From NCBI GenBank assembly GCA_032622095.1, contig CP136066.1:104987319-105051318 (forward strand): a DNA stretch of 64,000 nucleotides. Direction: 5' to 3'. Shown here piece by piece: positions 7,255 through 57,409 of this stretch. The notes under the pieces were generated by a model, which did not search any database, had not been told where the DNA came from, and worked only from the letters and a program-made list of their open reading frames with translations. Position numbers and translations under genes: made by a program. Source of the stretch: Siphonodentalium dalli (taxonomy: Eukaryota; Mollusca; Scaphopoda; Gadilida; Siphonodentaliidae). Every line of letters begins with the position of its first letter. Position 1 is the stretch's first letter.

Positions 7255-7260
7255 GTAAGT

Positions 7261-8069
7261 ACACACATTTATTGCACATCCATTCGTCGTGACTAAATTG
7301 CCAACATGCACAGTGCCGAAATATAATTTCCGCTACCGGACCACCCCCCCCCCCCCCCCCACCCACAATCCGTGCAATTTTGTTCAGGCTAACTTCTTGG
7401 GATCCACCCCCCCCCCCCCCAAGTAAATAAATCAAAATAATATGAAGCAAAATCATATCAGCTTTGTTCTTTCCAGCAATTACTATTTAGCATATTCCAA
7501 CATATTGCCAACATTTAAATACTGTTGAGTGAATATATAAAGGTATGCATTATGTATAGGGATTTCACCTATTATAACATTCATCTCACAATTCTACATA
7601 TGCAGTGATCAAGTGTGTTGGTCAATGCACTATATTATATGACATCCTAAATGGACTGCATGGGCAGTATGTCAGTGGTTGTTTGTTTGTTTATGTGTGG
7701 TCTACCAGCATACACAAAACAAAATGGTTTTGGTAATCAGTGACTGGTGTAAAAGGCTCAGAGGGCAAGATGATATTTGCAAAAATGCAAAATGTCACAT
7801 TTTATCATTCATAATGGGTTTATGTTTTATATATTTGGCCATGTATAGGACTGCTGGTACGTGCTTATTGGCTTGAATAAGTTGAATATCGACTAGTAGA
7901 AATACTGGGAAAGAATAAGGCATTGATATAGTCACTGAATAAGACATTGATATAGTCACTGCCTGAAGTACATGTGGTAGTATTGAGAACGGGATATAGG
8001 CTTTAATATCATCCAATGGATGTGCCATCGAAATGAAATGATACCAATTGTTGCGTGAAGTATCTTTAA
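7261..8069. other. Intron sequence before the array
   Basis: No exon seen. It contains poly-C tracts at about 7344 and 7407, and a 24-base direct duplication (AATAAGRCATTGATATAGTCACTG, once at about 7915 and again at 7939). Confidence 0.5.
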
Positions 8070-8396
8070 AGGTACTCAATCCGAATTAACGCTCCTAAAT
8101 TAGTATTTCTTTGGCTTCGTGGTAAAAAATATTTGATTCGAGTCGAGGAACCCACCCATCAAAGCTCAGAGTGATCAGATATGGATGTTTGTTGTTTCTC
8201 GAGATGTGCAATTAAATGTGGCCCAGAAACACGCCGTCAAACGGATGGTCTCGGACAAAATTGCGGATGCCTTATTTTTGTTGAACAAAATGTTGATAAA
8301 TAACACGTTTTGGGAAATTTGATACCATAGTTGACAGTGGTTAGCATTATTTTGTGGCAATAAATCGATTCTGATAACTAAAGCGTATTTTGAAGA

Positions 8397-8437
<41 letters not shown>

Positions 8438-9942
8438 ATCTTGATGATATGGGGACCGTCTGATCGGATTGAGTACCTTTAAAAATCAGCAAACACTAAG
8501 TGATATAATTCAAATATTTTCACTCAGAAATATCTCAATGTTGGCAAAAAGATTGGAAGCAGATATAATACCTTCGGGAACTGTTTTTATGATTTTGCTT
8601 CCAATCATGCTGTTTCGTATTACAAATCCACTGTTTTGGGTTGTATTAATATGTTGGTATATGTTAAATAGTAATTGCTAGAAAGAACGAGTTTGATCTA
8701 ATTTTGTTTCATATTGTTCCGATTTATTTACCAATTTGGAAGGGGGGGGGGGTCCCCAAAAAGATGACCTGAAAAAAAAATAGGGAACTATTTTTTGTTC
8801 GACCCTTTGTCTGCAAATTGTGTCACGATATCCTTGCTCCGAACTGAGTTTATCCTCCGGACTGGCGGAAGTCGGTTATATACAGGGCGTGACAATATTT
8901 CTTGCCGAGGTTCGTCAGGTAATACTGACTGGATCGTAAACCACGATGACGAGTCTTAGCGTGTTCTTCTGAGCGCGAAGCGGACTTGGATCTCTGACTT
9001 CAGTTGGAGATCTTACGTCATTGATGACCGTTCCTCTTCTCGTTAGCGGGAGATGGAGGAAGAGCATGCATTCTGAGTGGTTTTTTAAACAAACAAAAAT
9101 TAATATAATAAATTTTAACATCCTTTTACAGTTAGAAATTCAAAGATAAGCATGCATGCTCCACATAATTTTTCATATCAGGGCTTTCTCGCGTGAACAA
9201 CTTCTCTCACAAAAAGGGAATATCACACGATTCTTTAAAACTTCGATGAATGTATCCTTGACTTCAAATCAAAATGGGGAAATTCCGTGACTCTCTTCTT
9301 ATCGTAATGTAATCGTTGATAAATATGCTGATTGGAAAAAAAATTGCATCATAAATTTTTCCGACCTTCCAACCCCTCCCTATGTCGGATTTGTTCTACA
9401 CCCCCCCCCCCCCCCCTTGCATCTATTGGTAATAATTTTGTTTATCTTGTCTTGGTAATAATTTTGTTTATCTTGTCTTGGGACATTACAACCCGATTCC
9501 TTTTATAACGTTATTAACGACGTCAACTGTAACAGAAAATGCCTTCGCTAAATTATGGGGCATAATATATAGTCAGCATAAATCGCAAAATTGTTCCATT
9601 AAATAAAACAATATCGACCAAAATTTCAGTTTACTAAAAGCTAATATTTTCAAAGTGTGTAATAAAGACAGTTGTGCCAACATGTTAACGCTGTTGGGCT
9701 ATTTTGTCGTATCGCGAGGTAAAACTCGAACATACGGTTCTGGTTTTACCATCGTGTCACAATAAACTGGTGGAGGTTCACCCATCTGGTGTCGTTATTT
9801 ATATGTACCATACATGTATGTAATTAGCTAAAGCATGCCTCGTGGGGTACGTCTAGACGCTGGCAAATTTATCCGGCAGTATTGCAGGTAATTCATCGTA
9901 GAAGGCTGTGGTGTGCTAGGAGATAAACGACAGACAATTTAA
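8070..9942 (+). repeat. Array unit 1 (diverged left edge)
   Basis: MITE 8070-8478, with intact ends AGGTACTCAATCCGA / TCGGATTGAGTACCT between TTAA at 8066-8069 and 8479-8482. It has 13 TTG and a G11 tract. Compared with units 2-19, this spacer lacks a segment of about 153 bp just after the MITE (junction near 8492) and carries 67 bp (8848-8914) where they carry about 452 bp. It has a private 26-base duplication of GGTAATAATTTTGTTTATCT... at 9428-9481. It keeps variants seen again only in units 15, 18 and 19 (AATAAATTTTAACATCC, GCATGCTCCACAT). Confidence 0.9.
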
Positions 9943-10256
9943 AGGTATTCAATGAGATTAAACACCCCTAAACTACTATTTATTTGGCTTCGGGAGTAAA
10001 TAATATTTGATTCGAGTCGAGGAACCTACCCATCAAAGCTGGGTCTCGGTCAATATTGCGGATGAAGATGGATAACTCTAAAAACAAGTGGTAATACTGC
10101 CAAATTTCGTGAATACTTAAGTGATAATACGGCCATATTTTGTTGAACAAAATGTTGATAAATAACACTTTTTGGGAAATTTGATACCATAGTTGAGTGG
10201 TTAGCATTATTTTTTGGCAATAAATCGATTCTGATAACTAAAGCGTATTTTGAAGA

Positions 10257-10287
<31 letters not shown>

Positions 10288-12271
10288 CTGTTGTATCTTG
10301 ATGATATGGGGACCCTCTGATCGGATTGAGTACCTTTAAAAATCAGCAAACTCAAATGCTACACAGCTGGGCTACATGTACCGGTATAATATATTAATGT
10401 GCGTCCAACCGTGTGATGTACACAGTGTTCTCTAGTCATTAATATGGGCATTTCATATCAGAAATGATGCAATTGGTAACCACAGTGCAACAATAAGTGA
10501 TATAATTCAAATATTTTCACTTAGAAATATTTCAATGTTGGCAAAAAGATTGGAAGCAGATACCGTCGGGAACTGTTTTTATGATTTTGCTTGCAATCTT
10601 GCTATACCGTACTACCAATCCACTGTTTTTTATTTGTATTAATATGTTGGAATATGTTAAATAGTAATTGCTAGCAAGAACGAGGTTGATCTAATATTGG
10701 TTCATATTGTTACAATTTATTTACCAATTTGGGGGGGGGGGTGGGTCATAAAATTTGGCCTGAAAAAAAAATAGGGAACTATTTTTGTTTCGACCCTGTG
10801 TCTACAAATTGTGTCACGATATCCTTGCTCCGAACTGACCGTAATTGTTTACCACCCTACACCCGATACACCGGAACCGCCTCAACCAAAATCATACTCG
10901 TTGATTGCATACACAGCTGGTGGCTACCGTCTTTGGTGGATTTTCGTAAAGCTTATATATCGCGGGACATAACTCTAATACGATATCGGACATATCGGAA
11001 CAATTAAAACAAAAGTGGCGGGAATAATTAAAACAAATGTTATATCCATTATTTAATTACTCGATAGCACTTTCTTAATCGTATGAATTTATCATTGGTC
11101 GACAACTGTATACTATCACTTATTTTGTTTGTCTTTAAATTTTATGAACGAAATAATCCACTGAAATAGCATGTAATTTTAGCACACCAAGCGCTGGAGT
11201 TGACGACGTTATACTAATCGCCTCTTCGCCGTTGTTACTGTTAAGATCATACTTTTAGGGATCATTTCTATAGTATGCATCGACGATACGTCAGGTAATA
11301 CTGACTGGATCGTAAACCACGATGACGAGTCGTAGCGTGCTCTTCTGAGCGCGAAGCGGACTTGGATCTCTGACTTCGGTTGGAGATCTTAAGTCATTGA
11401 TGACCGTTCCTCTTCTCTTTAGCGGGAGATGGAGGAAGAGCACGCATTCTGAGTGGTTTTTTAAACAAACAAAAATTAATTTTAACATCCTTTTACAGTT
11501 AGAAATTCAAAGATAAGCATGCTTCACATAATTTTTCATATCAGGGCTTTCTCGCGTAAACAACTTCTCTCACAAAAAGGGAATATCACACGATTCTTTA
11601 AAACTTCGATGAATGTATCCTTGACTTCAAATCAAAATGGGGAAATTCCGTGACTCTCTTCTTATCGTAATGTAATCGTTGATAAATATGCTGATTGGAA
11701 AAAAATTGCATCATAAATTTTTCCGACCTCCCAACACCTCCCTGTGTCGGATTTGTTCTGCACCCCTCCCCTTGCATCTATTTGTAATAATTTTGTTTAT
11801 CTTGTCTTGGGACATTACAACCCGATTCCTTTTATAACGTCATTAACGACGTCAACTGTAACAGAAAATGCCTTCGCTAAATTATGGGGCATAATATATA
11901 GTCAGCATAAATCGCAAAATTGTTCCATTAAATAAAACAATATCGACCAAAATTTCAGTTTACTAAAAGCTAATATTTTCAAAGTGTGCAATAAAGACAG
12001 TTGTGCCAACATGTTAACGCTGTTGGGCTATTTTGTCGTGTCTCGAGGTAAAACTCGAACATACGGTTCTGGTTTTACCATCGTGTCACAATAAACTGGT
12101 GGAGGTTCACCCATCTGGTGTCGTTATTTATATGTACCATACATGTATGTAATTAGCTAAAGCATGCCTCGTGGGGTACGTCTAGACGCTGGCAAATTTA
12201 TCCGGCAGTATTGCAGGTAATTCATCGTAGAAGGCTGTGGTGTGCTAGGAGATAAACGACAGACAATTTAA
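9943..12271 (+). repeat. Array unit 2
   Basis: MITE 9943-10335 has the changed left end AGGTATTCAATGAG shared by all central units and an internal deletion of about 80 bp near 10041 that removes the GAGTGATCAGATATCG block. 10 TTG, G11. The spacer is of full central type. Confidence 0.95.
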
Positions 12272-12659
12272 AGGTATTCAATGAGATTAAACACCCCTAA
12301 ACTACTATTTCTTTGGCTTCGGGATTAAATAATATTTGATTCGAGTCGAGGAACCTACCCATCAAAGCTCAGAGTGATCAGATATCGATTTTGGAAATCT
12401 GTTATTTCAACTGCTTGTGGCCCAGAAACACGTCGTCAAAATGATGGTCTCGGTCAATATTGCGGATGAAGATGGATAACTCTAAAAACAAGTGGTAATA
12501 CAGTAAATTTCGTGAATACTTAAGTGATAATACGGCCATATTTTGTTGAACAAAATGTTGATAAATAACACTTTTTGGGAAATTTGATACCATAGTTGAG
12601 TGGTTAGCATTATTTTTTGGCAATAAATCGATTCTGATAACTAAAGCGTATTTTGAAGA

Positions 12660-12698
<39 letters not shown>

Positions 12699-14682
12699 GC
12701 TGTTGTATCTTGATGATATGGGGACCCTCTGATCGGATTGAGTACCTTTAAAAATCAGCAAACTCAAATGCTACACAGCTGGGCTACATGTACCGGTATA
12801 ATATATTAATGTGCGTCCAACCGTGTGATGTACACAGTGTTCTCTAGTCATTAATATGGGCATTTCATATCAGAAATGATGCAATTGGTAACCACAGTGC
12901 AACAATAAGTGATATAATTCAAATATTTTCACTTAGAAATATTTCAATGTTGGCAAAAAGATTGGAAGCAGATACCGTCGGGAACTGTTTTTATGATTTT
13001 GCTTGCAATCTTGCTATACCGTACTACCAATCCACTGTTTTTTATTTGTATTAATATGTTGGAATATGTTAAATAGTAATTGCTAGCAAGAACGAGGTTG
13101 ATCTAATATTGGTTCATATTGTTACAATTTATTTACCAATTTGGGGGGGGGGTGGGTCATAAAATTTGGCCTGAAAAAAAAATAGGGAACTATTTTTGTT
13201 TCGACCCTGTGTCTACAAATTGTGTCACGATATCCTTGCTCCGAACTGACCGTAATTGTTTACCACCCTACACCCGATACACCGGAACCGCCTCAACCAA
13301 AATCATACTCGTTGATTGCATACACAGCTGGTGGCTACCGTCTTTGGTGGATTTTCGTAAAGCTTATATGTCGCGGGACATAACTCTAATACGATATCGG
13401 ACATATCGGAACAATTAAAACAAAAGTGGCGGGAATAATTAAAACAAATGTTATATCCATTATTTAATTACTCGATAGCACTTTCTTAATCGTATGAATT
13501 TATCATTGGTCGACAACTGTATACTATCACTTATTTTGTTTGTCTTTAAATTTTATGAACGAAATAATCCACTGAAATAGCATGTAATTTTAGCACACCA
13601 AGCGCTGGAGTTGACGACGTTATACTAATCGCCTCTTCGCCGTTGTTACTGTTAAGATCATACTTTTAGGGATCATTTCTATAGTATGCATCGACGATAC
13701 GTCAGGTAATACTGACTGGATCGTAAACCACGATGACGAGTCGTAGCGTGCTCTTCTGAGCGCGAAGCGGACTTGGATCTCTGACTTCGGTTGGAGATCT
13801 TAAGTCATTGATGACCGTTCCTCTTCTCTTTAGCGGGAGATGGAGGAAGAGCACGCATTCTGAGTGGTTTTTTAAACAAACAAAAATTAATTTTAACATC
13901 CTTTTACAGTTAGAAATTCAAAGATAAGCATGCTTCACATAATTTTTCATATCAGGGCTTTCTCGCGTAAACAACTTCTCTCACAAAAAGGGAATATCAC
14001 ACGATTCTTTAAAACTTCGATGAATGTATCCTTGACTTCAAATCAAAATGGGGAAATTCCGTGACTCTCTTCTTATCGTAATGTAATCGTTGATAAATAT
14101 GCTGATTGGAAAAAAATTGCATCATAAATTTTTCCGACCTCCCAACACCTCCCTGTGTCGGATTTGTTCTGCACCCCTCCCCTTGCATCTATTTGTAATA
14201 ATTTTGTTTATCTTGTCTTGGGACATTACAACCCGATTCCTTTTATAACGTCATTAACGACGTCAACTGTAACAGAAAATGCCTTCGCTAAATTATGGGG
14301 CATAATATATAGTCAGCATAAATCGCAAAATTGTTCCATTAAATAAAACAATATCGACCAAAATTTCAGTTTACTAAAAGCTAATATTTTCAAAGTGTGC
14401 AATAAAGACAGTTGTGCCAACATGTTAACGCTGTTGGGCTATTTTGTCGTGTCGCGAGGTAAAACTCGAACATACGGTTCTGGTTTTACCATCGTGTCAC
14501 AATAAACTGGTGGAGGTTCACCCATCTGGTGTCGTTATTTATATGTACCATACATGTATGTAATTAGCTAAAGCATGCCTCGTGGGGTACGTCTAGACGC
14601 TGGCAAATTTATCCGGCAGTATTGCAGGTAATTCATCGTAGAAGGCTGTGGTGTGCTAGGAGATAAACGACAGACAATTTAA
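12272..14682 (+). repeat. Array unit 3
   Basis: Reference-like full unit, 2411 bp; MITE 12272-12747. Longest TTG run of the central units (13), G10. It has ATATGTCGCGGG, shared with units 7-10. Confidence 0.95.
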
Positions 14683-15070
14683 AGGTATTCAATGAGATTA
14701 AACACCCCTAAACTACTATTTCTTTGGCTTCGGGATTAAATAATATTTGATTCGAGTCGAGGAACCTACCCATCAAAGCTCAGAGTGATCAGATATCGAT
14801 TTTGGAAATCTGTTATTTCAACTGCTTGTGGCCCAGAAACACGTCGTCAAAATGATGGTCTCGGTCAATATTGCGGATGAAGATGGATAACTCTAAAAAC
14901 AAGTGGTAATACAGTAAATTTCGTGAATACTTAAGTGATAATACGGCCATATTTTGTTGAACAAAATGTTGATAAATAACACTTTTTGGGAAATTTGATA
15001 CCATAGTTGAGTGGTTAGCATTATTTTTTGGCAATAAATCGATTCTGATAACTAAAGCGTATTTTGAAGA

Positions 15071-15101
<31 letters not shown>

Positions 15102-17066
15102 CTGTTGTATCTTGATGATATGGGGACCCTCTGATCGGATTGAGTACCTTTAAAAATCAGCAAACTCAAATGCTACACAGCTGGGCTACATGTACCGGTA
15201 TAATATATTAATGTGCGTCCAACCGTGTGATGTACACAGTGTTCTCTAGTCATTAATATGGGCATTTCATATCAGAAATGATGCAATTGGTAACCACAGT
15301 GCAACAATAAGTGATATAATTCAAATATTTTCACTTAGAAATATTTCAATGTTGGCAAAAAGATTGGAAGCAGATACCGTCGGGAACTGTTTTTATGATT
15401 TTGCTTGCAATCTTGCTATACCGTACTACCAATCCACTGTTTTTTATTTGTATTAATATGTTGGAATATGTTAAATAGTAATTGCTAGCAAGAACGAGGT
15501 TGATCTAATATTGGTTCATATTGTTACAATTTATTTACCAATTTGGGGGGGGGTGGGTCATAAAATTTGGCCTGAAAAAAAAATAGGGAACTATTTTTGT
15601 TTCGACCCTGTGTCTACAAAATGTGTCACGATATCCTTGCTCCGAACTGACCGTAATTGTTTACCACCCTACACCCGATACACCGGAACCGCCTCAACCA
15701 AAATCATACTCGTTGATTGCACACACAGCTGGTGGCTACCGTCTTTGGTGGATTTTCGTAAAGCTTATATATCGCGGGACATAACTCTAATACGATATCG
15801 GACATATCGGAACAATTAAAACAAAAGTGGCGGGAATAATTAAAACAAATGTTATATCCATTATTTAATTACTCGATAGCACTTTCTTAATCGTATGAAT
15901 TTATCATTGGTCGACAACTGTATACTATCACTTATTTTGTGAACGAAATAATCCACTGAAATAGCATGTAATTTTAGCACACCAAGCGATGGAGTTGACG
16001 ACGTTATACTAATCGCCTCTTCGCCGTTGTTACTGTTAAGATCATACTTTTAGGGATCATTTCTATAGTATGCATCGACGATACGTCAGGTAATACTGAC
16101 TGGATCGTAAACCACGATGACGAGTCGTAGCGTGCTCTTCTGAGCGCGAAGCGGACTTGGATCTCTGACTTCGGTTGGAGATCTTAAGTCATTGATGACC
16201 GTTCCTCTTCTCTTTAGCGGGAGATGGAGGAAGAGCACGCATTCTGAGTGGTTTTTTAAACAAACAAAAATTAATTTTAACATCCTTTTACAGTTAGAAA
16301 TTCAAAGATAAGCATGCTTCACATAATTTTTCATATCAGGGCTTTCTCGCGTAAACAACTTCTCTCACAAAAAGGGAATATCACACGATTCTTTAAAACT
16401 TCGATGAATGTATCCTTGACTTCAAATCAAAATGGGGAAATTCCGTGACTCTCTTCTTATCGTAATGTAATCGTTGATAAATATGCTGATTGGAAAAAAA
16501 TTGCATCATAAATTTTTCCGACCTCCCAACACCTCCCTGTGTCGGATTTGTTCTGCACCCCTCCCCTTGCATCTATTTGTAATAATTTTGTTTATCTTGT
16601 CTTGGGACATTACAACCCGATTCCTTTTATAACGTCATTAACGACGTCAACTGTAACAGAAAATGCCTTCGCTAAATTATGGGGCATAATATATAGTCAG
16701 CATAAATCGCAAAATTGTTCCATTAAATAAAACAATATCGACCAAAATTTCAGTTTACTAAAAGCTAATATTTTCAAAGTGTGCAATAAAGACAGTTGTG
16801 CCAACATGTTAACGCTGTTGGGCTATTTTGTCGTGTCGCGAGGTAAAACTCGAACATACGGTTCTGGTTTTACCATCGTGTCACAATAAACTGGTGGAGG
16901 TTCACCCATCTGGTGTCGTTATTTATATGTACCATACATGTATGTAATTAGCTAAAGCATGCCTCGTGGGGTACGTCTAGACGCTGGCAAATTTATCCGG
17001 CAGTATTGCAGGTAATTCATCGTAGAAGGCTGTGGTGTGCTAGGAGATAAACGACAGACAATTTAA
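14683..17066 (+). repeat. Array unit 4 (subfamily 4-6)
   Basis: 10 TTG, G9. Carries a 17-bp deletion (CTTATTTTGTGAACG, near 15,940) shared only with unit 5, and the variants GATTGCACACACAGC and AAGCGATGGAG shared with units 5 and 6. Confidence 0.95.
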
Positions 17067-17454
17067 AGGTATTCAATGAGATTAAACACCCCTAAACTAC
17101 TATTTCTTTGGCTTCGGGATTAAATAATATTTGATTCGAGTCGAGGAACCTACCCATCAAAGCTCAGAGTGATCAGATATCGATTTTGGAAATCTGTTAT
17201 TTCAACTGCTTGTGGCCCAGAAACACGTCGTCAAAATGATGGTCTCGGTCAATATTGCGGATGAAGATGGATAACTCTAAAAACAAGTGGTAATACAGTA
17301 AATTTCGTGAATACTTAAGTGATAATACGGCCATATTTTGTTGAACAAAATGTTGATAAATAACACTTTTTGGGAAATTTGATACCATAGTTGAGTGGTT
17401 AGCATTATTTTTTGGCAATAAATCGATTCTGATAACTAAAGCGTATTTTGAAGA

Positions 17455-17490
<36 letters not shown>

Positions 17491-19457
17491 GCTGTTGTAT
17501 CTTGATGATATGGGGACCCTCTGATCGGATTGAGTACCTTTAAAAATCAGCAAACTCAAATGCTACACAGCTGGGCTACATGTACCGGTATAATATATTA
17601 ATGTGCGTCCAACCGTGTGATGTACACAGTGTTCTCTAGTCATTAATATGGGCATTTCATATCAGAAATGATGCAATTGGTAACCACAGTGCAACAATAA
17701 GTGATATAATTCAAATATTTTCACTTAGAAATATTTCAATGTTGGCAAAAAGATTGGAAGCAGATACCGTCGGGAACTGTTTTTATGATTTTGCTTGCAA
17801 TCTTGCTATACCGTACTACCAATCCACTGTTTTTTATTTGTATTAATATGTTGGAATATGTTAAATAGTAATTGCTAGCAAGAACGAGGTTGATCTAATA
17901 TTGGTTCATATTGTTACAATTTATTTACCAATTTGGGGGGGGGGTGGGTCATAAAATTTGGCCTGAAAAAAAAATAGGGAACTATTTTTGTTTCGACCCT
18001 GTGTCTACAAATTGTGTCACGATATCCTTGCTCCGAACTGACCGTAATTGTTTACCACCCTACACCCGATACACCGGAACCGCCTCAACCAAAATCATAC
18101 TCGTTGATTGCACACACAGCTGGTGGCTACCGTCTTTGGTGGATTTTCGTAAAGCTTATATATCGCGGGACATAACTCTAATACGATATCGGACATATCG
18201 GAACAATTAAAACAAAAGTGGCGGGAATAATTAAAACAAATGTTATATCCATTATTTAATTACTCGATAGCACTTTCTTAATCGTATGAATTTATCATTG
18301 GTCGACAACTGTATACTATCACTTATTTTGTGAACGAAATAATCCACTGAAATAGCATGTAATTTTAGCACACCAAGCGATGGAGTTGACGACGTTATAC
18401 TAATCGCCTCTTCGCCGTTGTTACTGTTAAGATCATACTTTTAGGGATCATTTCTATAGTATGCATCGACGATACGTCAGGTAATACTGACTGGATCGTA
18501 AACCACGATGACGAGTCGTAGCGTGCTCTTCTGAGCGCGAAGCGGACTTGGATCTCTGACTTCGGTTGGAGATCTTAAGTCATTGATGACCGTTCCTCTT
18601 CTCTTTAGCGGGAGATGGAGGAAGAGCACGCATTCTGAGTGGTTTTTTAAACAAACAAAAATTAATTTTAACATCCTTTTACAGTTAGAAATTCAAAGAT
18701 AAGCATGCTTCACATAATTTTTCATATCAGGGCTTTCTCGCGTAAACAACTTCTCTCACAAAAAGGGAATATCACACGATTCTTTAAAACTTCGATGAAT
18801 GTATCCTTGACTTCAAATCAAAATGGGGAAATTCCGTGACTCTCTTCTTATCGTAATGTAATCGTTGATAAATATGCTGATTGGAAAAAAATTGCATCAT
18901 AAATTTTTCCGACCTCCCAACACCTCCCTGTGTCGGATTTGTTCTGCACCCCTCCCCTTGCATCTATTTGTAATAATTTTGTTTATCTTGTCTTGGGACA
19001 TTACAACCCGATTCCTTTTATAACGTCATTAACGACGTCAACTGTAACAGAAAATGCCTTCGCTAAATTATGGGGCATAATATATAGTCAGCATAAATCG
19101 CAAAATTGTTCCATTAAATAAAACAATATCGACCAAAATTTCAGTTTACTAAAAGCTAATATTTTCAAAGTGTGCAATAAAGACAGTTGTGCCAACATGT
19201 TAACGCTGTTGGGCTATTTTGTCGTGTCGCGAGGTAAAACTCGAACATACGGTTCTGGTTTTACCATCGTGTCACAATAAACTGGTGGAGGTTCACCCAT
19301 CTGGTGTCGTTATTTATATGTACCATACATGTATGTAATTAGCTAAAGCATGCCTCGTGGGGTACGTCTAGACGCTGGCAAATTTATCCGGCAGTATTGC
19401 AGGTAATTCATCGTAGAAGGCTGTGGTGTGCTAGGAGATAAACGACAGACAATTTAA
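17067..19457 (+). repeat. Array unit 5 (subfamily 4-6)
   Basis: 12 TTG, G10. Same 17-bp deletion as unit 4 (near 18,330) and the same two subfamily variants, so units 4 and 5 are sister copies. Confidence 0.95.
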
Positions 19458-19845
19458 AGGTATTCAATGAGATTAAACACCCCTAAACTACTATTTCTTT
19501 GGCTTCGGGATTAAATAATATTTGATTCGAGTCGAGGAACCTACCCATCAAAGCTCAGAGTGATCAGATATCGATTTTGGAAATCTGTTATTTCAACTGC
19601 TTGTGGCCCAGAAACACGTCGTCAAAATGATGGTCTCGGTCAATATTGCGGATGAAGATGGATAACTCTAAAAACAAGTGGTAATACAGTAAATTTCGTG
19701 AATACTTAAGTGATAATACGGCCATATTTTGTTGAACAAAATGTTGATAAATAACACTTTTTGGGAAATTTGATACCATAGTTGAGTGGTTAGCATTATT
19801 TTTTGGCAATAAATCGATTCTGATAACTAAAGCGTATTTTGAAGA

Positions 19846-19881
<36 letters not shown>

Positions 19882-22253: not shown

Positions 22254-22284
<31 letters not shown>

Positions 22285-24655: not shown

Positions 24656-24688
<33 letters not shown>

Positions 24689-27061: not shown

Positions 27062-27097
<36 letters not shown>

Positions 27098-29471: not shown

Positions 29472-29504
<33 letters not shown>

Positions 29505-43444: not shown

Positions 43445-45841
43445 AGGTATTCAATGAGATTAAACACCCCTAAACTACTATTTCTTTGGCTTCGGGATTA
43501 AATAATATTTGATTCGAGTCGAGGAACCTACCCATCAAAGCTCAGAGTGATCAGATATCGATTTTGGAATCTGTTATTTCAACTGCTTGTGGCCCAGAAA
43601 CACGTCGTCAAAATGATGGTCTCGGTCAATATTGCGGATGAAGATGGATAACTCTTAAAAACAAGTGGTAATACTGCCAAATTTCGTGAATACTTAAGTG
43701 ATAATACGGCCATATTTTGTTGAACAAAATGTTGATAAATAACACTTTTTGGGAAATTTGATACCATAGTTGAGTGGTTAGCATTATTTTTTGGCAATAA
43801 ATCGATTCTGATAACTAAAGCGTATTTTGAAGAATTGTTGTTGTTGTTGTTGTTGTTGTTGCTGTTGTATCTTGATGATATGGGGACCCTCTGATCGGAT
43901 TGAGTACCTTTAAAAATCAGCAAACTCAAATGCTACACAGCTGGGCTACATGTACCGGTATAATATATTAATGTGCGTCCAACCGTGTGATGTACACAGT
44001 GTTCTCTAGTCATTAATATGGGCATTTCATATCAGAAATGATGCAATTGGTAACCACAGTGCAACAATAAGTGATATAATTCAAATATTTTCACTTAGAA
44101 ATATTTCAATGTTGGCAAAAAGATTGGAAGCAGATACCGTCGGGAACTGTTTTTATGATTTTGCTTGCAATCTTGCTATACCGTACTACCAATCCACTGT
44201 TTTTTATTTGTATTAATATGTTGGAATATGTTAAATAGTAATTGCTAGCAAGAACGAGGTTGATCTAATATTGGTTCATATTGTTACAATTTATTTACCA
44301 ATTTGGGGGGGTGGGTCATAAAATTTGGCCTGAAAAAAAAATAGGGAACTATTTTTGTTTCGAACCTGTGTCTACAAATTGTGTCACGATATCCTTGCTC
44401 CGAACTGACCGTAATTGTTTACCACCCTACACCCGATACACCGGAACCGCCTCAACCAAAATCATACTCGTTGATTGCATACACAGCTGGTGGCTACCGT
44501 CTTTGGTGGATTTTCGTAAAGCTTATATATCGCGGGACATAACTCTAATACGATATCGGACATATCGGAACAATTAAAACAAAAGTGGCGGGAATAATTA
44601 AAACAAATGTTATATCCATTATTTAATTACTCGATAGCACTTTCTTAATCGTATGAATTTATCATTGGTCGACAACTGTATACTATCACTTATTTTGTTT
44701 GTCTTTAAATTTTAGGAACGAAATAATCCACTGAAATAGCATGTAATTTTAGCACACCAAGCGCTGGAGTTGACGACGTTATACTAATCGCCTCTTCGCC
44801 GTTGTTACTGTTAAGATCATACTTTTAGGGATCATTTCTATAGTATGCATCGACGATACGTCAGGTAATACTGACTGGATCGTAAACCACGATGACGAGT
44901 CGTAGCGTGCTCTTCTGAGCGCGAAGCGGACTTGGATCTCTGACTTCGGTTGGAGATCTTAAGTCATTGATGACCGTTCCTCTTCTCTTTAGCGGGAGAT
45001 GGAGGAAGAGCACGCATTCTGAGTGGTTTTTTAAACAAACAAAAATTAATTTTAACATCCTTTTACAGTTAGAAATTCAAAGATAAGCATGCTTCACATA
45101 ATTTTTCATATCAGGGCTTTCTCGCGTAAACAACTTCTCTCACAAAAAGGGAATATCACACGATTCTTTAAAACTTCGATGAATGTATCCTTGACTTCAA
45201 ATCAAAATGGGGAAATTCCGTGACTCTCTTCTTATCGTAATGTAATCGTTGATAAATATGCTGATTGGAAAAAAATTGCATCATAAATTTTTCCGACCTC
45301 CCAACACCTCCCTGTGTCGGATTTGTTCTGCACCCCTCCCCTTGCATCTATTTGTAATAATTTTGTTTATCTTGTCTTGGGACATTACAACCCGATTCCT
45401 TTTATAACGTCATTAACGACGTCAACTGTAACAGAAAATGCCTTCGCTAAATTATGGGGCATAATATATAGTCAGCATAAATCGCAAAATTGTTCCATTA
45501 AATAAAACAATATCGACCAAAATTTCAGTTTACTAAAAGCTAATATTTTCAAAGTGTGCAATAAAGACAGTTGTGCCAACATGTTAACGCTGTTGGGATA
45601 TTTTGTCGTGTCGCGAGGTAAAACTCGAACATACGGTTCTGGTTTTACCATCGTGTCACAATAAACTGGTGGAGGTTCACCCATCTGGTGTCGTTATTTA
45701 TATGTACCATACATGTATGTAATTAGCTAAAGCATGCCTCGTGGGGTACGTCTAGACGCTGGCAAATTTATCCGGCAGTATTGCAGGTAATTCATCGTAG
45801 AAGGCTGTGGTGTGCTAGGAGATAAACGACAGACAATTTAA
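43445..45841 (+). repeat. Array unit 16
   Basis: 9 TTG, G7. Closest to unit 12: the same ACTCTTAAAAAC, ACTGCCAAATTTCG, TTTCGAACCTG, TAGGAACG and GGGATATTTTG states. Confidence 0.95.
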
Positions 45842-48839
45842 AGGTATTCAATGAGATTAAACACCCCTAAACTACTATTTCTTTGGCTTCGGGATTAAAT
45901 AATATTTGATTCGAGTCGAGGAACCTACCCATCAAAGCTCAGAGTGATCAGATATCGATTTTGGAAATCTGTTATTTCAACTGATTGTGGCCCAGAAACA
46001 CGTCGTCAAAATGATGGTCTCGGTCAATATTGCGGATGAAGATGGACAACTCTAAAAACAAGTGGTAATACAGTAAATTTCGTGAATACTTAAGTGATAA
46101 TACGGCCATATTTTGTTGAACAAAATGTTGATAAATAACACTTTTTGGGAAATTTGATACCATAGTTGAGTGGTTAGCATTATTTTTTGGCAATAAATCG
46201 ATTCTGATAACTAAAGCGTATTTTGAAGAATTGTTGTTGTTGTTGTTGTTGTTGCTGTTGTATCTTGATGATATGGGGACCCTCTGATCGGATTGAGTAC
46301 CTTTAAAAATCACCAAACTCAAATGCTACACAGCTGGGCTACATGTACCGGTATAATATATTAATGTGCGTCCAACCGTGTGATGTACACAGTGTTCTCT
46401 AGTCATTAATATGGGCATTTTATATCAGAAATGATGCAATTGGTAACCACAGTGCAACAATAAGTGATATAATTCAAATATTTTCACTTAGAAATATTTC
46501 AATGTTGGCAAAAAGATTGGAAGCAGATACCGTCGGGAACTGTTTTTATGATTTTGCTTGCAATCTTGCTATACCGTACTACCAATCCACTGTTTTTTAT
46601 TTGTATTAATATGTTGGAATATGTTAAATAGTAATTGCTAGCAAGAACGAGGTTGATCTAATATTGGTTCATATTGTTACAATTTATTTACCAATTTGGG
46701 GGGTGGGTCATAAAATTTGGCCTGAAAAAAAAACAGGGAACTATTTTTGTTTCGACCCTGTGTCTACAAATTGTGTCACGATATCCTTGCTCCGAACTGA
46801 CCGTAATTGTTTACCACCCTACACCCGATACACCGGAACCGCCTCAACCAAAATCACACTCGTTGATTGCATACACAGCTGGTGGCTACCGTCTTTGGTG
46901 GATTTTCGTAAAGCTTATATATCGCGGGACATAACTCTAATACGATATCGGACATATCGGAACAATTAAAACAAAAGTGGCGGGAATAATTAAAACAAAT
47001 GTTATATCCATTATTTAATTACTCGATAGCACTTTCTTAATCGTATGAATTTATCATTGGTCGACAACTGTATACTATCACTTATTTTGTTTGTCTTTAA
47101 ATTTTAGGAACGAAATAATCCACTGAAATAGCATGTAATTTTAGCACACCAAGCGCTGGAGTTGACGACGTTATACTAATCGCCTCTTCGCCGTTGTTAC
47201 TGTTAAGATCATACTTTTAGGGATCATTTCTATAGTATGCATCGACGATACGTCAGGTAATAGTGACTGGATCGTAAACCACGATGACGAGTCGTAGCGT
47301 GCTCTTCTGAGCGCGAAGCGGACTTGGATCTCTGACTTCGGTTGGAGATCTTAAAGGGGTACTGTACGCCATTTTCAATAAATTCCCGGTGATAACAACG
47401 ATCTATTATCGATACTATATAGAAATATAAGTAATTTGAGTCGAAGATGTATTCTGTAAACGCTGAGGTTAATAGGCTATCTTAAAATTTAATAATTTAA
47501 AAGTTAATAATTTAATATAAATTGATTTTATGGCTCCAGCCATAAAATGGCGTCTCTTAAAATTGGAATTTCCGTGTACAAAACGTAATCAAATTATAAT
47601 TGAGGGATACTGGATTAATAAAACAATTGCACACACGATCGTTTGAAACATTATGCTTATACGGGGAGAAAACCCAAGCCACTCATTGACTAGTGACCAT
47701 ACACTAACTTAAATGAGTATATGGGACTACTAAGCATATAATATAATGTTTATTTGATTCATTTGGTTGAAAACTGTACAAAAATTACTCGACAACGACA
47801 ATTTGTATTTTTGCATTCCGGTAAATTTGCCATCCGTAACAATACTTCGTACTCAACAGACTTTCAAAAAATGGAAAAGTTGTTACCTTATTCTCCGACT
47901 CGGGGATTATAGAAACCAACAACAACATCTTGGGTACAGTACCCCTTTAAGTCATTGATGACCGTTCCTCTTCTCTTTAGCGGGAGATGGAGGAAGAGCA
48001 CGCATTCTGAGTGGTTTTTTAAACAAACAAAAATTAATTTTAACATCCTTTTACAGTTAGAAATTCAAAGATAAGCATGCTTCACATAATTTTTCATATC
48101 AGGGCTTTCTCGCGTAAACAACTTCTCTCACAAAAAGGGAATATCACACGATTCTTTAAAACTTCGATGAATGTATCCTTGACTTCAAATCAAAATGGGG
48201 AAATTCCGTGACTCTCTTCTTATCGTAATGTAATCGTTGATAAATATGCTGATTGGAAAAAAATTGCATCATAAATTTTTCCGACCTCCCAACACCTCCC
48301 TGTGTCGGATTTGTTCTGCACCCCTCCCCTTGCATCTATTTGTAATAATTTTGTTTATCTTGTCTTGGGACATTACAACCCGATTCCTTTTATAACGTCA
48401 TTAACGACGTCAACTGTAACAGAAAATGCCTTCGCTAAATTATGGGGCATAATATATAGTCAGCATAAATCGCAAAATTGTTCCATTAAATAAAACAATA
48501 TCGACCAAAATTTCAGTTTACTAAAAGCTAATATTTTCAAAGTGTGCAATAAAGACAGTTGTGCCAACATGTTAACGCTGTTGGGCTATTTTGTCGTGTC
48601 GCGAGGTAAAACTCGAACATACGGTTCTGGTTTTACCATCGTGTCACAATAAACTGGTGGAGGTTCACCCATCTGGTGTCGTTATTTATATGTACCATAC
48701 ATGTATGTAATTAGCTAAAGCATGCCTCGTGGGGTACGTCTAGACGCTGGCAAATTTATCCGGCAGTATTGCAGGTAATTCATCGTAGAAGGCTGTGGTG
48801 TGCTAGGAGATAAACGACAGACAATTTAAAGGTATTCAA
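45842..48839 (+). repeat. Array unit 17 (twin of unit 14, carries an insertion)
   Basis: 8 TTG, G6. Shares the four private variants of unit 14. Interrupted at GAGATCTTAA by the 592-bp element at 47355-47946 plus its TTAA duplication. Private changes include CAACTGATTGTGG and GATGGACAACTC in the MITE. Confidence 0.95.
47351..47950. mobile_element. 592-bp TTAA MITE inserted into array unit 17
   Basis: The element is 47355-47946. Perfect 13-bp inverted ends AGGGGTACTGTAC / GTACAGTACCCCT are flanked by TTAA at 47351-47354 and 47947-47950. Other array units read GAGATCTTAAGTCATTG without interruption, which gives a direct empty site. The TTAA duplication and short ends indicate piggyBac-type mobilisation. 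It holds a perfect 11-bp hairpin at 47525-47548 (ATTTTATGGCT / AGCCATAAAAT) and no transposase. It is a different family from the array MITE, although both begin with AGG and share GTACT. Confidence 0.93.
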
Positions 48840-51228
48840 TGAGATTAAACACCCCTAAACTACTATTTCTTTGGCTTCGGGATTAAATAATATTTGATTC
48901 GAGTCGAGGAACCTACCCATCAAAGCTCAGAGTGATCAGATATCGATTTTGGAAATCTGTTATTTCAACTGCTTGTGGCCCAGAAACACGTCGTCAAAAT
49001 GATGGTCTCGGTCAATATTGCGGATGAAGATGGATAACTCTAAAAACAAGTGGTAATACAGTAAATTTCGTGAATACTTAAGTGATAATACGGCCATATT
49101 TTGTTGAACAAAATGTTGATAAATAACACTTTTTGGGAAATTTGATACCATAGTTGAGTGGTTAGCATTATTTTTTGGCAATAAATCGATTCTGATAACT
49201 AAAGCGTATTTTGAAGAATTGTTGTTGTTGTTGTTGTTGCTGTTGTATCTTGATGATATGGGGACCCTCTGATCGGATTGAGTACCTTTAAAAATCAGCA
49301 AACTCAAATGCTACACAGCTGGGCTACATGTACCGGTATAATATATTAATGTGCGTCCAACCGTGTGATGTACACAGTGTTCTCTAGTCATTAATATGGG
49401 CATTTCATATCAGAAATGATGCAATTGGTAACCACAGTGCAACAATAAGTGATATAATTCAAATATTTTCACTTAGAAATATTTCAATGTTGGCAAAAAG
49501 ATTGGAAGCAGATACCGTCGGGAACTGTTTTTATGATTTTGCTTGCAATCTTGCTATACCGTACTACCAATCCACTGTTTTTTATTTGTATTAATATGTT
49601 GGAATATGTTAAATAGTAATTGCTAGCAAGAACGAGGTTGATCTAATATTGGTTCATATTGTTACAATTTATTTACCAATTTGGGGGGGTGGGTCATAAA
49701 ATTTGGCCTGAAAAAAAAATAGGGAACTATTTTTGTTTCGAACCTGTGTCTACAAATTGTGTCACGATATCCTTGCTCCGAACTGACCGTAATTGTTTAC
49801 CACCCTACACCCGATACACCGGAACCGCCTCAACCAAAATCATACTCGTTGATTGCATACACAGCTGGTGGCTACCGTCTTTGGTGGATTTTCGTAAAGC
49901 TTATATATCGCGGGACATAACTCTAATACGATATCGGACATATCGGAACAATTAAAACAAAAGTGGCGGGAATAATTAAAACAAATGTTATATCCATTAT
50001 TTAATTACTCGATAGCACTTTCTTAATCGTATGAATTTATCATTGGTCGACAACTGTATACTATCACTTATTTTGTTTGTCTTTAAATTTTATGAACGAA
50101 ATAATCCACTGAAATAGCATGTAATTTTAGCACACCAAGCGCTGGAGTTGACGACGTTATACTAATCGCCTCTTCGCCGTTGTTACTGTTAAGATCATAC
50201 TTTTAGGGATCATTTCTATAGTATGCATCGACGATACGTCAGGTAATACTGACTGGATCGTAAACCACGATGACGAGTCGTAGCGTGCTCTTCTGAGCGC
50301 GAAGCGGACTTGGATCTCTGACTTCGGTTGGAGATCTTAAGTCATTGATGACCGTTCCTCTTCTCTTTAGCGGGAGATGGAGGAAGAGCACGCATTCTGA
50401 GTGGTTTTTTAAAGAAAAAAAAATTAATAAAATAAATTTTAACATCCTTTTACAGTTAGAAATTCAAAGATAAGCATGCTCCACATAATTTTTCATATCA
50501 GGGCTTTCTCGCATAAACAACTTCTCTCGCAAAAAGGGAATATCACACGATTCTTTAAAATTTCGATGAATGTATCCTTGACTTCAAATCAAAATGGGGA
50601 AATTCCGTGACTCTCTTCTTATCGTAATGTAATCGTTGATAAATATGCTGATTGGAAAAAAATTGCATCATAAATTTTTCCGACCTCCCAACACCTCCCT
50701 GTGTCGGATTTGTTCTGCACCCCTCCCCTTGCATCTATTTGTAATAATTTTGTTTATCTTGTCTTGGGACATTACAACCCGATTCCTTTTATAACGTCAT
50801 TAACGACGTCAACTGTAACAGAAAATGCCTTCGCTAAATTATGGGGCATAATATATAGTCAGCATAAATCGCAAAATTGTTCCATTAAATAAAACAATAT
50901 CGACCAAAATTTCAGTTTACTAAAAGCTAATATTTTCAAAGTGTGCAATAAAGACAGTTGTGCCAACATGTTAACGCTGTTGGGCTATTTTGTCGTGTCG
51001 CGAGGTAAAACTCGAACATACGGTTCTGGTTTTACCATCGTGTCACAATAAACTGATGGAGGTTCACCCATCTGGTGTCGTTATTTATATGTACCATACA
51101 TGTATGTAATTAGCTAAAGCATGCCTCGTGGGGTACGTCTAGACGCTGGCAAATTTATCCGGCAGTATTGCAGGTAATTCATCGTAGAAGGCTGTGGTGT
51201 GCTAGGAGATAAACGACAGACAATTTAA
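48840..51228 (+). repeat. Array unit 18 (twin of unit 15)
   Basis: 7 TTG (shortest), G7. Shares the TTTCGAACCTG state and the AAAGAAAAAAAAATTAAT / GCTCCAC / CTCGCATAAAC block with unit 15. AAACTGATGGAGG near 51,050 is shared with unit 19. Confidence 0.95.
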
Positions 51229-53616
51229 AGGTATTCAATGAGATTAAACACCCCTAAACTACTATTTCTTTGGCTTCGGGATTAAATAATATTTGATTCG
51301 AGTCGAGGAACCTACCCATCAAAGCTCAGAGTGATCAGATATCGATTTTGGAATCTGTTATTTCAACTGCTTGTGGCCCAGAAACACGTCGTCAAAATGA
51401 TGGTCTCGGTCAATATTGCGGATGAAGATGGATAACTCTAAAAACAAGTGGTAATACTGCCAAATTTCGTGAATACTTAAGTGATAATACGGCCATATTT
51501 TGTTGAACAAAATGTTGATAAATAACACTTTTTGGGAAATTTGATACCATAGTTGAGTGGTTAGCATTATTTTTTGGCAATAAATCGATTCTGATAACTA
51601 AAGCGTATTTTGAAGAATTGTTGTTGTTGTTGTTGTTGTTGTTGCTGTTGTATCTTGATGATATGGGGACCCTCTGATCGGATTGAGTACCTTTAAAAAT
51701 CAGCAAACTCAAATGCTACACAGTTGGGCTACATGTACCGGTATAATATATTAATGTGCGTCCAACCGTGTGATGTACACAGTGTCCTCTAGTCATTAAT
51801 ATGGGCATTTCATATCAGAAATGATGCAATTGGTAACCACAGTGCAACAATAAGTGATATAATTCAAATATTTTCACTTAGAAATATTTCAATGTTGGCA
51901 AAAAGATTGGAAGCAGATACCGTCGGGAACTGTTTTTATGATTTTGCTTGCAATCTTGCTATACCGTACTACCAATCCACTGTTTTTTATTTGTATTAAT
52001 ATGTTGGAATATGTTAAATAGTAATTGCTAGCAAGAACGAGGTTGATCTAATATTGGTTCATATTGTTACAATTTATTTACCAATTTGGTGGGGGGGGGG
52101 GTCATAAAATTTGGCCTGAAAAAAAAATAGGGAACTATTTTTGTTTCGACCCTGTGTCTACAAATTGTGTCACGATATCCTTGCTCCGAACTGACCGTAA
52201 TTGTTTACCACCCTACACCCGATACACCGGAACCGCCTCAACCAAAATCATACTCGTTGATTGCATACACAGCTGGTGGCTACCGTCTTTGGTGGATTTT
52301 CGTAAAGCTTATATATCGCGGGACATAACTCTAATACGATATCGGACATATCGGAACAATTAAAACAAAAGTGGCGGGAATAATTAAAACAAATGTTATA
52401 TCCATTATTTAGTTACTCGATAGCACTTTCTTAATCGTATGAATTTATCATTGGTCGACAACTGTATACTATCACTTATTTTGTTTGTCTTTAAATTTTA
52501 TGAACGAAATAATCCACTGAAATAGCATGTAATTTTAGCACACCAAGCGCTGGAGTTGACGACGTTATACTAATCGCCTCTTCGCCGTTGTTACTGTTAA
52601 GATCATACTTTTAGGGATCATTTCTATAGTATGCATCGACGATACGTCAGGTAATACTGACTGGATCGTAGCGTGCTCTTCTGAGCGCGAAGCGGACTTG
52701 GATCTCTGACTTCGGTTGGAGATCTTAAGTCATTGATGACCGTTCCTCTTCTCTTTAGCGGGAGATGGAGGAAGAGCACGCATTCTGAGTGGTTTTTTAA
52801 AGAAAAAAAAATTAATAAAATAAATTTTAACATCCTTTTACAGTTAGAAATTCAAAGATAAGCATGCTCCACATAATTTTTCATATCAGGGCTTTCTCGC
52901 ATAAACAACTTCTCTCGCAAAAAGGGAATATCACACGATTCTTTAAAATTTCGATGAATGTATCCTTGACTTCAAATCAAAATGGGGAAATTCCGTGACT
53001 CTCTTCTTATCGTAATGTAATCGTTGATAAATATGCTGATTGGAAAAAAATTGCATCATAAATTTTTCCGACCTCCCAACACCTCCCTGTGTCGGATTTG
53101 TTCTGCACCCCTCCCCTTGCATCTATTGGTAATAATTTTGTTTATCTTGTCTTGGGACATTACAACCCGATTCCTTTTATAACGTCATTAACGACGTCAA
53201 CTGTAACAGAAAATGCCTTCGCTAAATTATGGGGCATAATATATAGTCAGCATAAATCGCAAAATTGTTCCATTAAATAAAACAATATCGACCAAAATTT
53301 CAGTTTACTAAAAGCTAATATTTTCAAAGTGTGCAATAAAGACAGTTGTGCCAACATGTTAACGCTGTTGGGCTATTTTGTCGTGTCGCGAGGTAAAACT
53401 CGAACATACGGTTCTGGTTTTACCATCGTGTCACAATAAACTGATGGAGGTTCACCCATCTGGTGTCGTTATTTATATGTACCATACATGTATGTAATTA
53501 GCTAAAGCATGCCTCGTGGGGTACGTTTGGACGCTGGCAAATTTCTCCTGCAGTATTGCATATAATTCATGGCAGAACGCTGTGGTGTGCTAGCAGATGA
53601 ACGAGAGACAATTTAA
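51229..53616 (+). repeat. Array unit 19 (right edge)
   Basis: 9 TTG; the poly-G tract is changed to TGGGGGGGGGGG followed by TCATAA. A private 20-bp deletion at about 52,670 leaves GGATCGTAGCG, consistent with recombination between two TCGTA copies. CTATTGGTAATAAT is shared with unit 1. After about 53,525 the unit diverges from the others (TTTGGACGC, CTCCTGCAG, GCATATAATTCATGGCAG). Confidence 0.93.
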
Positions 53617-54077
53617 AGGTACTCAATCCGATCAAACACCCATAAACTACTATTTCTTTTTACTTCGGGGGTAAAAAATATTTGACTCGAGTCGAGGAAC
53701 CTACCCATCAAAGCTCAGAGTGATCAGATATCGATTTTGGAAGTTTGTTATTTCAATTGGCCCAGAAACCCGGCGTCAAAAGGATGGTCTCAGTCAAAAT
53801 TGCAGATGAAGATGGATAACTCTAAAAACATGTGGTAACACTGCCAAATTTCGTGAATACTCAAGTGATAATACGGCCATATTTCGTTGAACAAAATGTT
53901 GATAAATAACACGTTTTGGGAAATTTTATACGATGGTTGGCATAATTTTGTTGCAATAAATTGATTCTGATAACTAGAGCGTATTTTGAATAAATGTTGT
54001 TGTTGTTGTTGTTGTTGTTGTCGTCGTCGTCGTTGTATCTTGATGATATGGGGACCCTCTGATCGTATTGAGTACCT
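53617..54077 (+). mobile_element. Terminal MITE closing the array (copy 20)
   Basis: TTAA at 53613-53616, left end AGGTACTCAATCCGA (the intact form, as in copy 1), right end GATCGTATTGAGTACCT followed by TTAT. The trinucleotide run is TTG mixed with TCG. No spacer follows it, so the array starts and ends with this element. Confidence 0.9.
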
Positions 54078-54164
54078 TTATGACATATTATGTGCTTATT
54101 TCACAACTCCAAACTGATATTTTAGGACTCAGCCACTACATCCATTTGAAGAATGGATCATTAA

Positions 54165-55651: not shown

Positions 55652-55898
55652 TATCATATAAATCAAATAAAGTGACTCTAGTTAGTGAAATCATGGTCGT
55701 TTGTTTATCGGCGGTTTTTAGCGGACTATATGTGTTTACATTTTTGCGTGTTCAAATGATGTGCTTTACAAGGGTACATCCATTGTTGTTTAATTTTTCG
55801 ACAATAGTTACTGTAGTTTAATAAGCGATATCACTGGGTCGCGGCCGTATATGGTTCATCCAACTCCGTTACGTGGTTTCAGATATTCTTCCAGCCCA
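55652..55898. other. Intron interval with repeat fragments
   Basis: Contains a partial inverted match to the dispersed repeat of 820-975 near 55,706, and at 55824-55860 a segment (AAGCGATATCACTGGGTCGC) repeated in direct orientation at about 57063-57110 (AAGCGAGATCACTGAGTCGC). No exon seen. Confidence 0.45.
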
Positions 55899-56034
55899 GG
55901 TTCCGTGGTTTTAGTGCTACTGGTCAAAGTTTTGGAGTAGCATTTCCATATATGGAGCTTTTGAATTATTCACGACTTCCCAAAATGGAATGCTACTCCA
56001 AAACTTTGACCCGCAGCACTAAAACCACGGAACC
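55899..56034. repeat. Inverted repeat, 46-bp arms
   Basis: Arm 55899-55944 (GGTTCCGTGGTTTTAGTGCT...) pairs with 55989-56034 with only two mismatches in 46 bases, around a 44-base loop. The transcript could fold into a long hairpin. A diverged single-arm relative follows the direct repeat at about 57118 (GCGGTTTGAGTGCTACATGT). Confidence 0.85.
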
Positions 56035-56072
56035 CTACCTGGTGGATCCAATATGACCACGAGTTAGTGACA

Positions 56073-56555
56073 GGTGGGGAATCACGTGGTTTCAAGTTGA
56101 TGAGTATACACCAGGCATTCAAAATGGCCGAGGCGATCTATACGACGCGACCAGACGCGATGATCAAAGATAATAAACTAAGATATATGACATATTCCAT
56201 ATAATTTTGACAGCTACGAGCAGATGCTATACTATTTTTCAAACAAGCTGATACCTCATTTATTTCCAATTTCATATTTGTTTGCTCTAACATTCTGACC
56301 AAAGTTGTCAGTCGAAGGATTCTCCAAGATGTATGGACTAGTGTATTCCACGCACCTCCGACTGGCAACTTTGGTCAGAATGTTATAGAAGACCACTACG
56401 TATTTCCGAACAAATAAGGTATCAACATGTTTCAAAAATATATAACAGTCAAACTGCTATGTTTTGCGTCAGTTCCTCGTATATTATGTGTTTGTGCGTT
56501 TCAACATTTTGAATGCGTGGTACTCACCAACCTCGAAACCACGTGATTCCCCACC
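56073..56555. mobile_element. Foldback element, about 483 bp
   Basis: The whole segment is one imperfect palindrome. Outer ends are GGTGGGGAATCACGTGG / CCACGTGATTCCCCACC; ATTCAAAAT / ATTTTGAAT follow. Middle arms are CAAGCTGATACCTCATTTAT versus ATAAGGTATCAACATG. Inner arms are ATTCTGACCAAAGTTGTCAG (56291) versus CTGGCAACTTTGGTCAGAAT (56362). No transposase and no clear target duplication, so the class is unresolved. Confidence 0.7.
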
Positions 56556-56608
56556 GTGATTATACATTCTTCAAATAAGTGTAGTGGCTGAGGCGTAAAT
56601 ATATAGAT

Positions 56609-56768
56609 AGTTATCAACTGGTTCAGAGAACTACGTTAAATAATTCACGAGAGGCGAGAGACGTCGATAAAGAAACGAGTGCGCTTAACGCGCACGAGTT
56701 TATTACACAAACGTCTCTCACCTCGAGTGAATTATTGAACGTAATTCTCGGAACTAATTGATTACTCT
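56609..56768. repeat. Long hairpin of about 160 bp
   Basis: Arms GTTCAGAGAACTACGTT..., TAATTCACGAG, GCGAGAGACGT pair with ACGTCTCTC, CTCGAGTGAATTA, GAACGTAATTCTCGGAAC, converging on GTGCGC-TTAAC-GCGCAC at 56679-56695. Mismatches are few and scattered. It may be a small palindromic MITE; no target duplication was identified. Confidence 0.8.
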
Positions 56769-57409
56769 ATTTATTATACTTATTAAAACACACATAATTA
56801 ATGCATGAATGTCCCGATGTGGAGAAAGATCAACCATCGAAAATTCAGTCTAAATCAGTAACCGACGTAACGTCAATGAAGTCACGGGAAATGACATAAT
56901 TCACTAGTGACATTACCATTTTTAATTAACAGCGTTTTCAATGGAAATCGCGCATAGGAGTGTAATAAAATGAAATAAACATTAAAAGTTGTAAACGTAC
57001 AATTTGTCAGGAGGTTAAAATTTGTTGTTTTCTAAATTCTACGAAGAAACATGACATATCTGTATAAGCGAGATCACTGAGTCGCGGCCATTTTGGATTC
57101 ATCCAGCCCCCGTCCGCGGTTTGAGTGCTACATGTCAAAGTTCTGTAGCTGCATTGATTATATAACACTGAAAAACACCTTGCTTGATATAGAATATTCT
57201 AACCATTTATTTCATACAGTTTTATCATTTAGATGACTAGCAATAATTTATGTGTCAATTTTTCAATAAAAATATGACATTATTTGGTATTTAAAGTTTG
57301 TTTAGTGGCACAAAGTTAACTATAGGTTGTGTGTAGTGTTGTGACAGGTAGTCTGAACCTCGAATACATTATAACCTCGTAAAACGCTCTCTAATATTAT
57401 CCATTGCAG
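56769..57409. other. Distal intron sequence
   Basis: AT-rich, no exon. Contains the direct repeat segment at about 57063-57150 related to 55824-55940. It ends in the acceptor TTATCCATTGCAG. Confidence 0.5.

Follow-up and report, generated by a model that had tools for sequence, protein, structure and literature searches.

A tandem cluster of U3 small nucleolar RNA (snoRNA) genes, transcribed independently and all lying on the same strand, is very probably nested in the G7.0 intron of a globin gene of the scaphopod mollusc Siphonodentalium dalli, as judged from its sequence. The window, which is the whole stretch of DNA analyzed, comprises 64,000 nucleotides (assembly GCA_032622095.1, contig CP136066.1, positions 104,987,319 to 105,051,318 of the forward strand), and all positions below are counted from its first letter. 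An earlier reading made from the letters alone (the sequence-only reading) had noticed that about 46 kb of this intron is a 2.4-kb tandem array. This observation was confirmed, as the array runs from 8065 to 54080 and takes up 46,016 of the 50,155 intron bases (92%). The interpretation given with it was partly supported. The array had been taken for anonymous satellite-like DNA, of a kind expected in heterochromatin; since every unit holds U3 sequence, it is instead a multicopy RNA gene cluster, similar in kind to human RNU2. The intron and the array, whose units each contain one miniature inverted-repeat transposable element (MITE), are placed as follows:

7255..57409, + strand: globin G7.0 intron, 50,155 bp
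8065..54080, + strand: tandem array whose 2.4-kb units each combine one MITE with a spacer holding a U3 gene; MITE ends at both limits

The gene content of the array was revealed by an Rfam scan of the whole window. It returned 19 matches, all to U3 snoRNA (RF00012), one per unit and all on the + strand, which is also that of the globin. No other Rfam family reached its gathering score anywhere in the window, and a search of one unit for other RNA families at a permissive threshold gave only a weak sR46 match (16.5 bits vs 50). Fifteen of the 19 U3 copies are letter-identical over 215 nt and score 160.3 bits, while the copy in unit 14 differs at position 59 only and scores 157.7 bits; these matches extend over positions 1-219 of the 219 in the model, for which the gathering score is 34. 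The tally is 16 full-length copies and three damaged ones (units 1, 17, and 19):

8862..9081, + strand: unit 1, U3 pseudogene that has lost its 5' end and the region upstream, with homology to the other units from 8913 onward
11243..11457, + strand: U3 snoRNA gene of unit 2, the reference copy, 160.3 bits
13654..13868, + strand: U3 gene of unit 3, identical
16038..16252, + strand: U3 gene of unit 4, identical
18429..18643, + strand: U3 gene of unit 5, identical
20837..21051, + strand: U3 gene of unit 6, identical
23239..23453, + strand: U3 gene of unit 7, identical
25645..25859, + strand: U3 gene of unit 8, identical
28055..28269, + strand: U3 gene of unit 9, identical
30462..30676, + strand: U3 gene of unit 10, identical
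32829..33043, + strand: U3 gene of unit 11, identical
35226..35440, + strand: U3 gene of unit 12, identical
37619..37833, + strand: U3 gene of unit 13, identical
40011..40225, + strand: U3 gene of unit 14, one substitution at position 59
42407..42621, + strand: U3 gene of unit 15, identical
44813..45027, + strand: U3 gene of unit 16, identical
47205..47444, + strand: unit 17, U3 gene broken by a MITE insertion; its 71.0-bit Rfam match extends into the insert
50191..50405, + strand: U3 gene of unit 18, identical
52599..52788, + strand: unit 19, U3 copy in which 20 nt over box C' are deleted

In the alignment the U3 5' domain is present, together with the sequences which we take to be boxes C', B, C, and D; this is not the case in units 1 and 19. 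In the stretch upstream of U3 in unit 1, positions 8848-8912 have no match to the other units. A 30-base U3 pattern gave zero matches in viral and genome contig collections, which are uninformative for an animal.

Twenty anchors define the 19 units, which follow each other head-to-tail. Each is composed of one TTAA-flanked MITE and about 1.9 kb containing U3. Unit lengths fall between 2,372 and 2,412 bp in 17 of the 19; the first interval measures 1,857 bp and unit 17 reaches 2,985 bp because of an insertion. The sequence-only reading had spoken of 19 near-identical units. The number holds, and so does the near-identity for the 17 units between the two edge units, with a mean identity of 99.7% (substitutions only) and substitutions in 30 columns, besides insertions and deletions; the edge units are divergent. 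Among the 17 core units, difference grows with distance (Mantel r 0.32, p 0.006). The mean is 5.4 differences at lag 1 and falls to 4.9 at lag 3; this fits block duplication and agrees with a three-unit-spaced duplicate formed by units 14-15 and 17-18, with one difference each. In unit 19, divergence from the core consensus increases toward the outer end: the spacer differs by 0.6% upstream of U3 and by 2.3% downstream of it, and the MITE by 9.9%. Parts of the reference unit are absent from unit 1; its left-hand segments are mostly 83-95% alike and its right-hand segments about 98-99%, and the per-segment divergence of its left half was left unused owing to poor alignment.

Near-identical 2.4-kb units are difficult to assemble, and the array could therefore be an artefact in which two U3-repeat loci were joined or the copy number was inflated. 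This is improbable in view of the flanks, which are consecutive in-phase exons of one globin, and of the divergence of both edge units, with unit 19 decaying toward the unique flank. Moreover, the longest exact repeat within the array is 3,206 bp, a length that typical HiFi reads exceed.

Further information on the origin of the cluster comes from its MITEs. The array MITE measures up to about 480 bp per unit and has TTAA ends and a TTG run, and the array limits at 8065 and 54080 coincide with MITE ends. Two further diverged copies were found outside the array, one at 4710-5145 and one, reversed, within 54157-54545. The two edge elements (with the terminal inverted repeat, TIR, of the left one) and the insertion in unit 17, private to that unit, are listed here:

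8065..8483, + strand: left-edge MITE, TTAA at both ends, TIR AGGTACTCAATCC
53612..54080, + strand: right-edge MITE, outer end TTAT, not TTAA
47355..47946, + strand: 592-bp TTAA-flanked MITE inside the unit-17 U3 gene, TIR AGGGGTACTGTA, terminus AGGGG

Between the left-edge and right-edge MITEs the difference is 13%, and from either of them to the consensus of the 18 internal copies it is about 10%. At sites where the edges differ, this consensus agrees with the right-edge copy in its 5' part (25:8) and with the left-edge copy in its 3' part (15:1). The 49 scorable sites are what remains of 53 after removal of one that matches neither edge and of three columns outside the element. In a permutation test maximized over the break point the pattern has p 4.5e-5, and collapsing the clustered sites gives 8e-4. 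Unequal exchange between two MITEs would leave at the junction an element whose 5' part comes from the right copy and whose 3' part comes from the left one. This is the pattern observed, the internal MITEs resembling recombinants of the left-edge and right-edge elements. It can be proposed that a single U3 gene once lay in the globin intron between two TTAA-flanked MITEs of the same orientation, and that unequal exchange between these gave rise to the first duplication. Further unequal exchange and conversion would then have multiplied and homogenized the units while the edges decayed.

The exons on either side of the intron had been described in the sequence-only reading as consecutive pieces of one globin with conserved splice phases, and this proved well founded:

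7029..7254, + strand: globin exon 2, B12.2 to G7.0, phase-2 start and phase-0 end, with CD1 Phe, E7 His, and F8 His
57410..57544, + strand: globin exon 3, G7.0 to stop TGA

The first base of exon 2 completes a split codon (phase 2), and the exon closes in phase 0. The splice sites around the G7.0 intron are canonical (donor GAT/GTAAGT, acceptor TTGCAG/CTC). Pfam Globin (PF00042) matched the joined segments 7030-7254 and 57410-57541 with 53.9 bits (E 3.1e-14) and exon 2 alone with 42.3 bits; exon 3 alone had no Pfam match at E up to 1. As a control, the open frame behind each of the 376 phase-0 AG acceptors located 3' of exon 2 (at least 30 open codons) was appended to exon 2 and scored with a hidden Markov model (HMM) built from five human globins. 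The acceptor at 57410 ranked first of the 376 with 39.1 bits, the runner-up reached 32.8 bits, and exon 2 alone 29.4 bits. Exon 3 by itself obtained 2.9 bits on this model, so that its support lies in the joined reading. In an alignment with the same five human globins the heme residues CD1 Phe, E7 His, and F8 His are conserved, and the introns, judged together with the splice phases, fall at B12.2 and G7.0. Both intron positions are conserved in animal globins (PMC4732748, PMC3087553). Among the 46 solved sequences matched, annelid globin D chains came best, followed by neuroglobins. These results support a single animal globin gene, seemingly normal in other respects, with consecutive exons 2 and 3.

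The intron is huge for a globin, as had been pointed out before: its 50,155 bp compare with 250-2,175 bp for the molluscan G7.0 introns tabulated in PMC4732748. Such a length, together with the fact that exon 1 is unseen, would be compatible with an origin of the two exons in different transcripts or in a pseudogene. The open frames, conserved phases, heme residues, and the best acceptor among 376 make this unlikely. GTAAGT is found once in the intron, at the true donor, but an argument from cryptic donors was dropped, since only 0.86 occurrences are expected per unit.

How a globin gene could function with this intron was framed in the sequence-only reading as a choice between transcribing and removing 19 units and losing function. 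That choice is incomplete, because the units are likely to be genes themselves, nested in the globin gene. Each full-length unit would be expressed from its own promoter, providing a high dose of U3 for processing of the 18S ribosomal RNA precursor, while transcription of the globin precursor messenger RNA would run through the whole array, which splicing would bridge. For the 16 full-length copies, the flanks of U3 are common to the units, with four variants of the 100 bp upstream and two of the 60 bp downstream, and a run of six T is present at the U3 3' end. The upstream region can be illustrated by unit 2:

11143..11242, + strand: presumed U3 promoter region of unit 2, with TTATAC at -34 to -29 of U3; putative in its promoter function

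All U3 copies lie on the globin strand, which would also be compatible with host-dependent snoRNAs, with their source in the intron of the globin or in unseen exons lying between units. SNORD115/116 are released from their host in this manner. The release of 19 snoRNAs from one intron would be unusual, and this explanation is very unlikely; the literature passage weighed against it names protists and plants, but animals are absent from it. With independently transcribed genes as the preferred reading, functional coupling of the two systems can be imagined: U3 promoters or termination signals within the intron may control whether full-length globin transcripts are made, which would let globin output follow U3 copy number or ribosome demand, or transcription of the globin may aid the supply of U3. 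Such coupling is a speculative idea of low probability.

Several points weigh against the proposed cluster of active U3 genes. U3 expression and globin splicing are both assumptions, and the array copy number rests on one assembly. In the MITEs, the recombinant signal of the 3' part consists mostly of private changes of the right-edge copy, and later conversion is a possible source of this 3' pattern. The TATA-like TTATAC and the run of six T make transcription by either polymerase II or polymerase III possible. Animal U3 is a polymerase II product; in protists and plants, polymerase III is used. Exon 1 was undetected in 1-7028, where zero donors satisfied the requirements of phase, open frame, and Trp spacing and the HMM gave zero hits, in a screen that is weak for a short exon given the 2.9 bits obtained for exon 3 by the same model; intron 1 may therefore exceed 7 kb too. 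Lastly, among the 16 core units variable sites number 1 in the 215 of U3 and 28 in the 2,187 of the rest of the unit (Fisher p 0.51). U3 is thus not measurably more conserved than its surroundings, and its identity shows homogenization, not selection.

This last result is relevant to the possibility that the array, though genuine, is for the most part a dead relic, i.e., a homogenized U3 pseudogene satellite, with the functional U3 genes elsewhere. As the spacer is homogenized as much as U3, identity needs no selection, and three of the 19 U3 copies are damaged. The sequence shared by the units is nevertheless a complete U3 of 160.3 bits, whereas a master copy that had died should show lesions, and damage is confined to the two edge units and to unit 17 with its private insertion. 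A dead relic is accordingly considered unlikely, and a cluster of functional U3 genes is still favored.

Other features of the window were recorded as well. ARAGORN found zero tRNAs. Of the 69 stop-to-stop stretches of at least 90 amino acids, 10 were scanned with Pfam, nine without a match and one with a sub-threshold match (14.4 bits vs a cut-off of 21); the scan of these 10 was also the scope within which a transposase was sought. Among the other 59, which lie outside the scan, one includes exon 2 and many correspond to two frames that recur from unit to unit. A 32-bp minisatellite in 32 copies (1241-2280) and degenerate repeats of about 250 bp that are 79-84% alike (6093-6726) lie in presumed globin intron 1. 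Within the G7.0 intron, an inverted 82% match to unit positions 339-442 at 7406-7506 is a spacer fragment outside the array. A trinucleotide tract of TGA type at 57553-58336, with 262 imperfect copies (72% matches), starts 8 nt past the globin stop codon and may be the 3' untranslated region of the globin. Just 3' of the globin lies a large foldback (58359-63405), with inverted arms at 58359-59781 and 61986-63405 that are 88% alike and an interior of short degenerate repeats.

If the proposal is right, an apparently anonymous macrosatellite has turned out to be a likely functional gene family, and the locus would provide a natural test case for transcription and splicing of a protein-coding gene across many tandem small-RNA genes on the same strand. 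It would also be a readable example of transposon copies seeding a tandem RNA gene array. Moreover, it cautions against naming long tandem arrays satellites before a scan against RNA families. A search of the open-access literature found no paper on tandem-repeat U3 snoRNA gene copies, and among the open-access matches listed, by their titles and the start of their abstracts, none concerns a U3 array in a protein-coding intron.

A close comparison is with the human RNU2 macrosatellite of U2 small nuclear RNA genes, the units of which are homogenized. Both systems consist of kilobase head-to-tail units that are homogenized and carry one small-RNA gene each. In RNU2 the unit measures 6.1 kb and is present in 5-82 copies (PMC4132748); RNU2 has been described as an upstream element of BRCA1 (PMC3795722). 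In contrast, the array described here contains U3 rather than U2, has a 2.4-kb unit that includes a TTAA-flanked MITE, and is nested in a protein-coding intron. The human U3 (RNU3) genes are described as clustered and not tandemly repeated (PMC5973252); both loci therefore hold several U3 genes at one place, but in tandem only in the mollusc. Six U3 loci reported for Schistosoma mansoni share identical flanks and were treated as a single gene (PMC2770079). U3 is said to have massively proliferated in king crabs (PMC8086120).

The MITEs can be compared with Kolobok and T2-MITE elements, which have a TTAA target and a terminal AGGRR motif (PMC6004289). The unit-17 insert, with TTAA on both sides and an AGGGG terminus, corresponds to a Kolobok T2-MITE as judged by its ends. 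The array MITE does not, as it has TTAA but its terminus is AGGTA and not AGGRR.

Very long introns containing repeats are also found in coding genes of Drosophila, where kl-3 and kl-5 have megabase introns with satellite DNA (PMC6508621). Unlike these, the intron described here is 50 kb long and its repeats hold RNA genes. Within the globin family, the amphioxus genes BflGb6 and BflGb9 contain minisatellites that undergo concerted evolution inside, with the boundaries excluded (PMC3087553). The amphioxus repeats differ from the array in their 150-160-bp units, in their involvement of exon-intron boundaries, and in that no RNA gene is mentioned in the passages on them. In both cases tandem repeats in a globin gene have a homogenized interior, and the dynamics appear to be the same, on a smaller scale in amphioxus.

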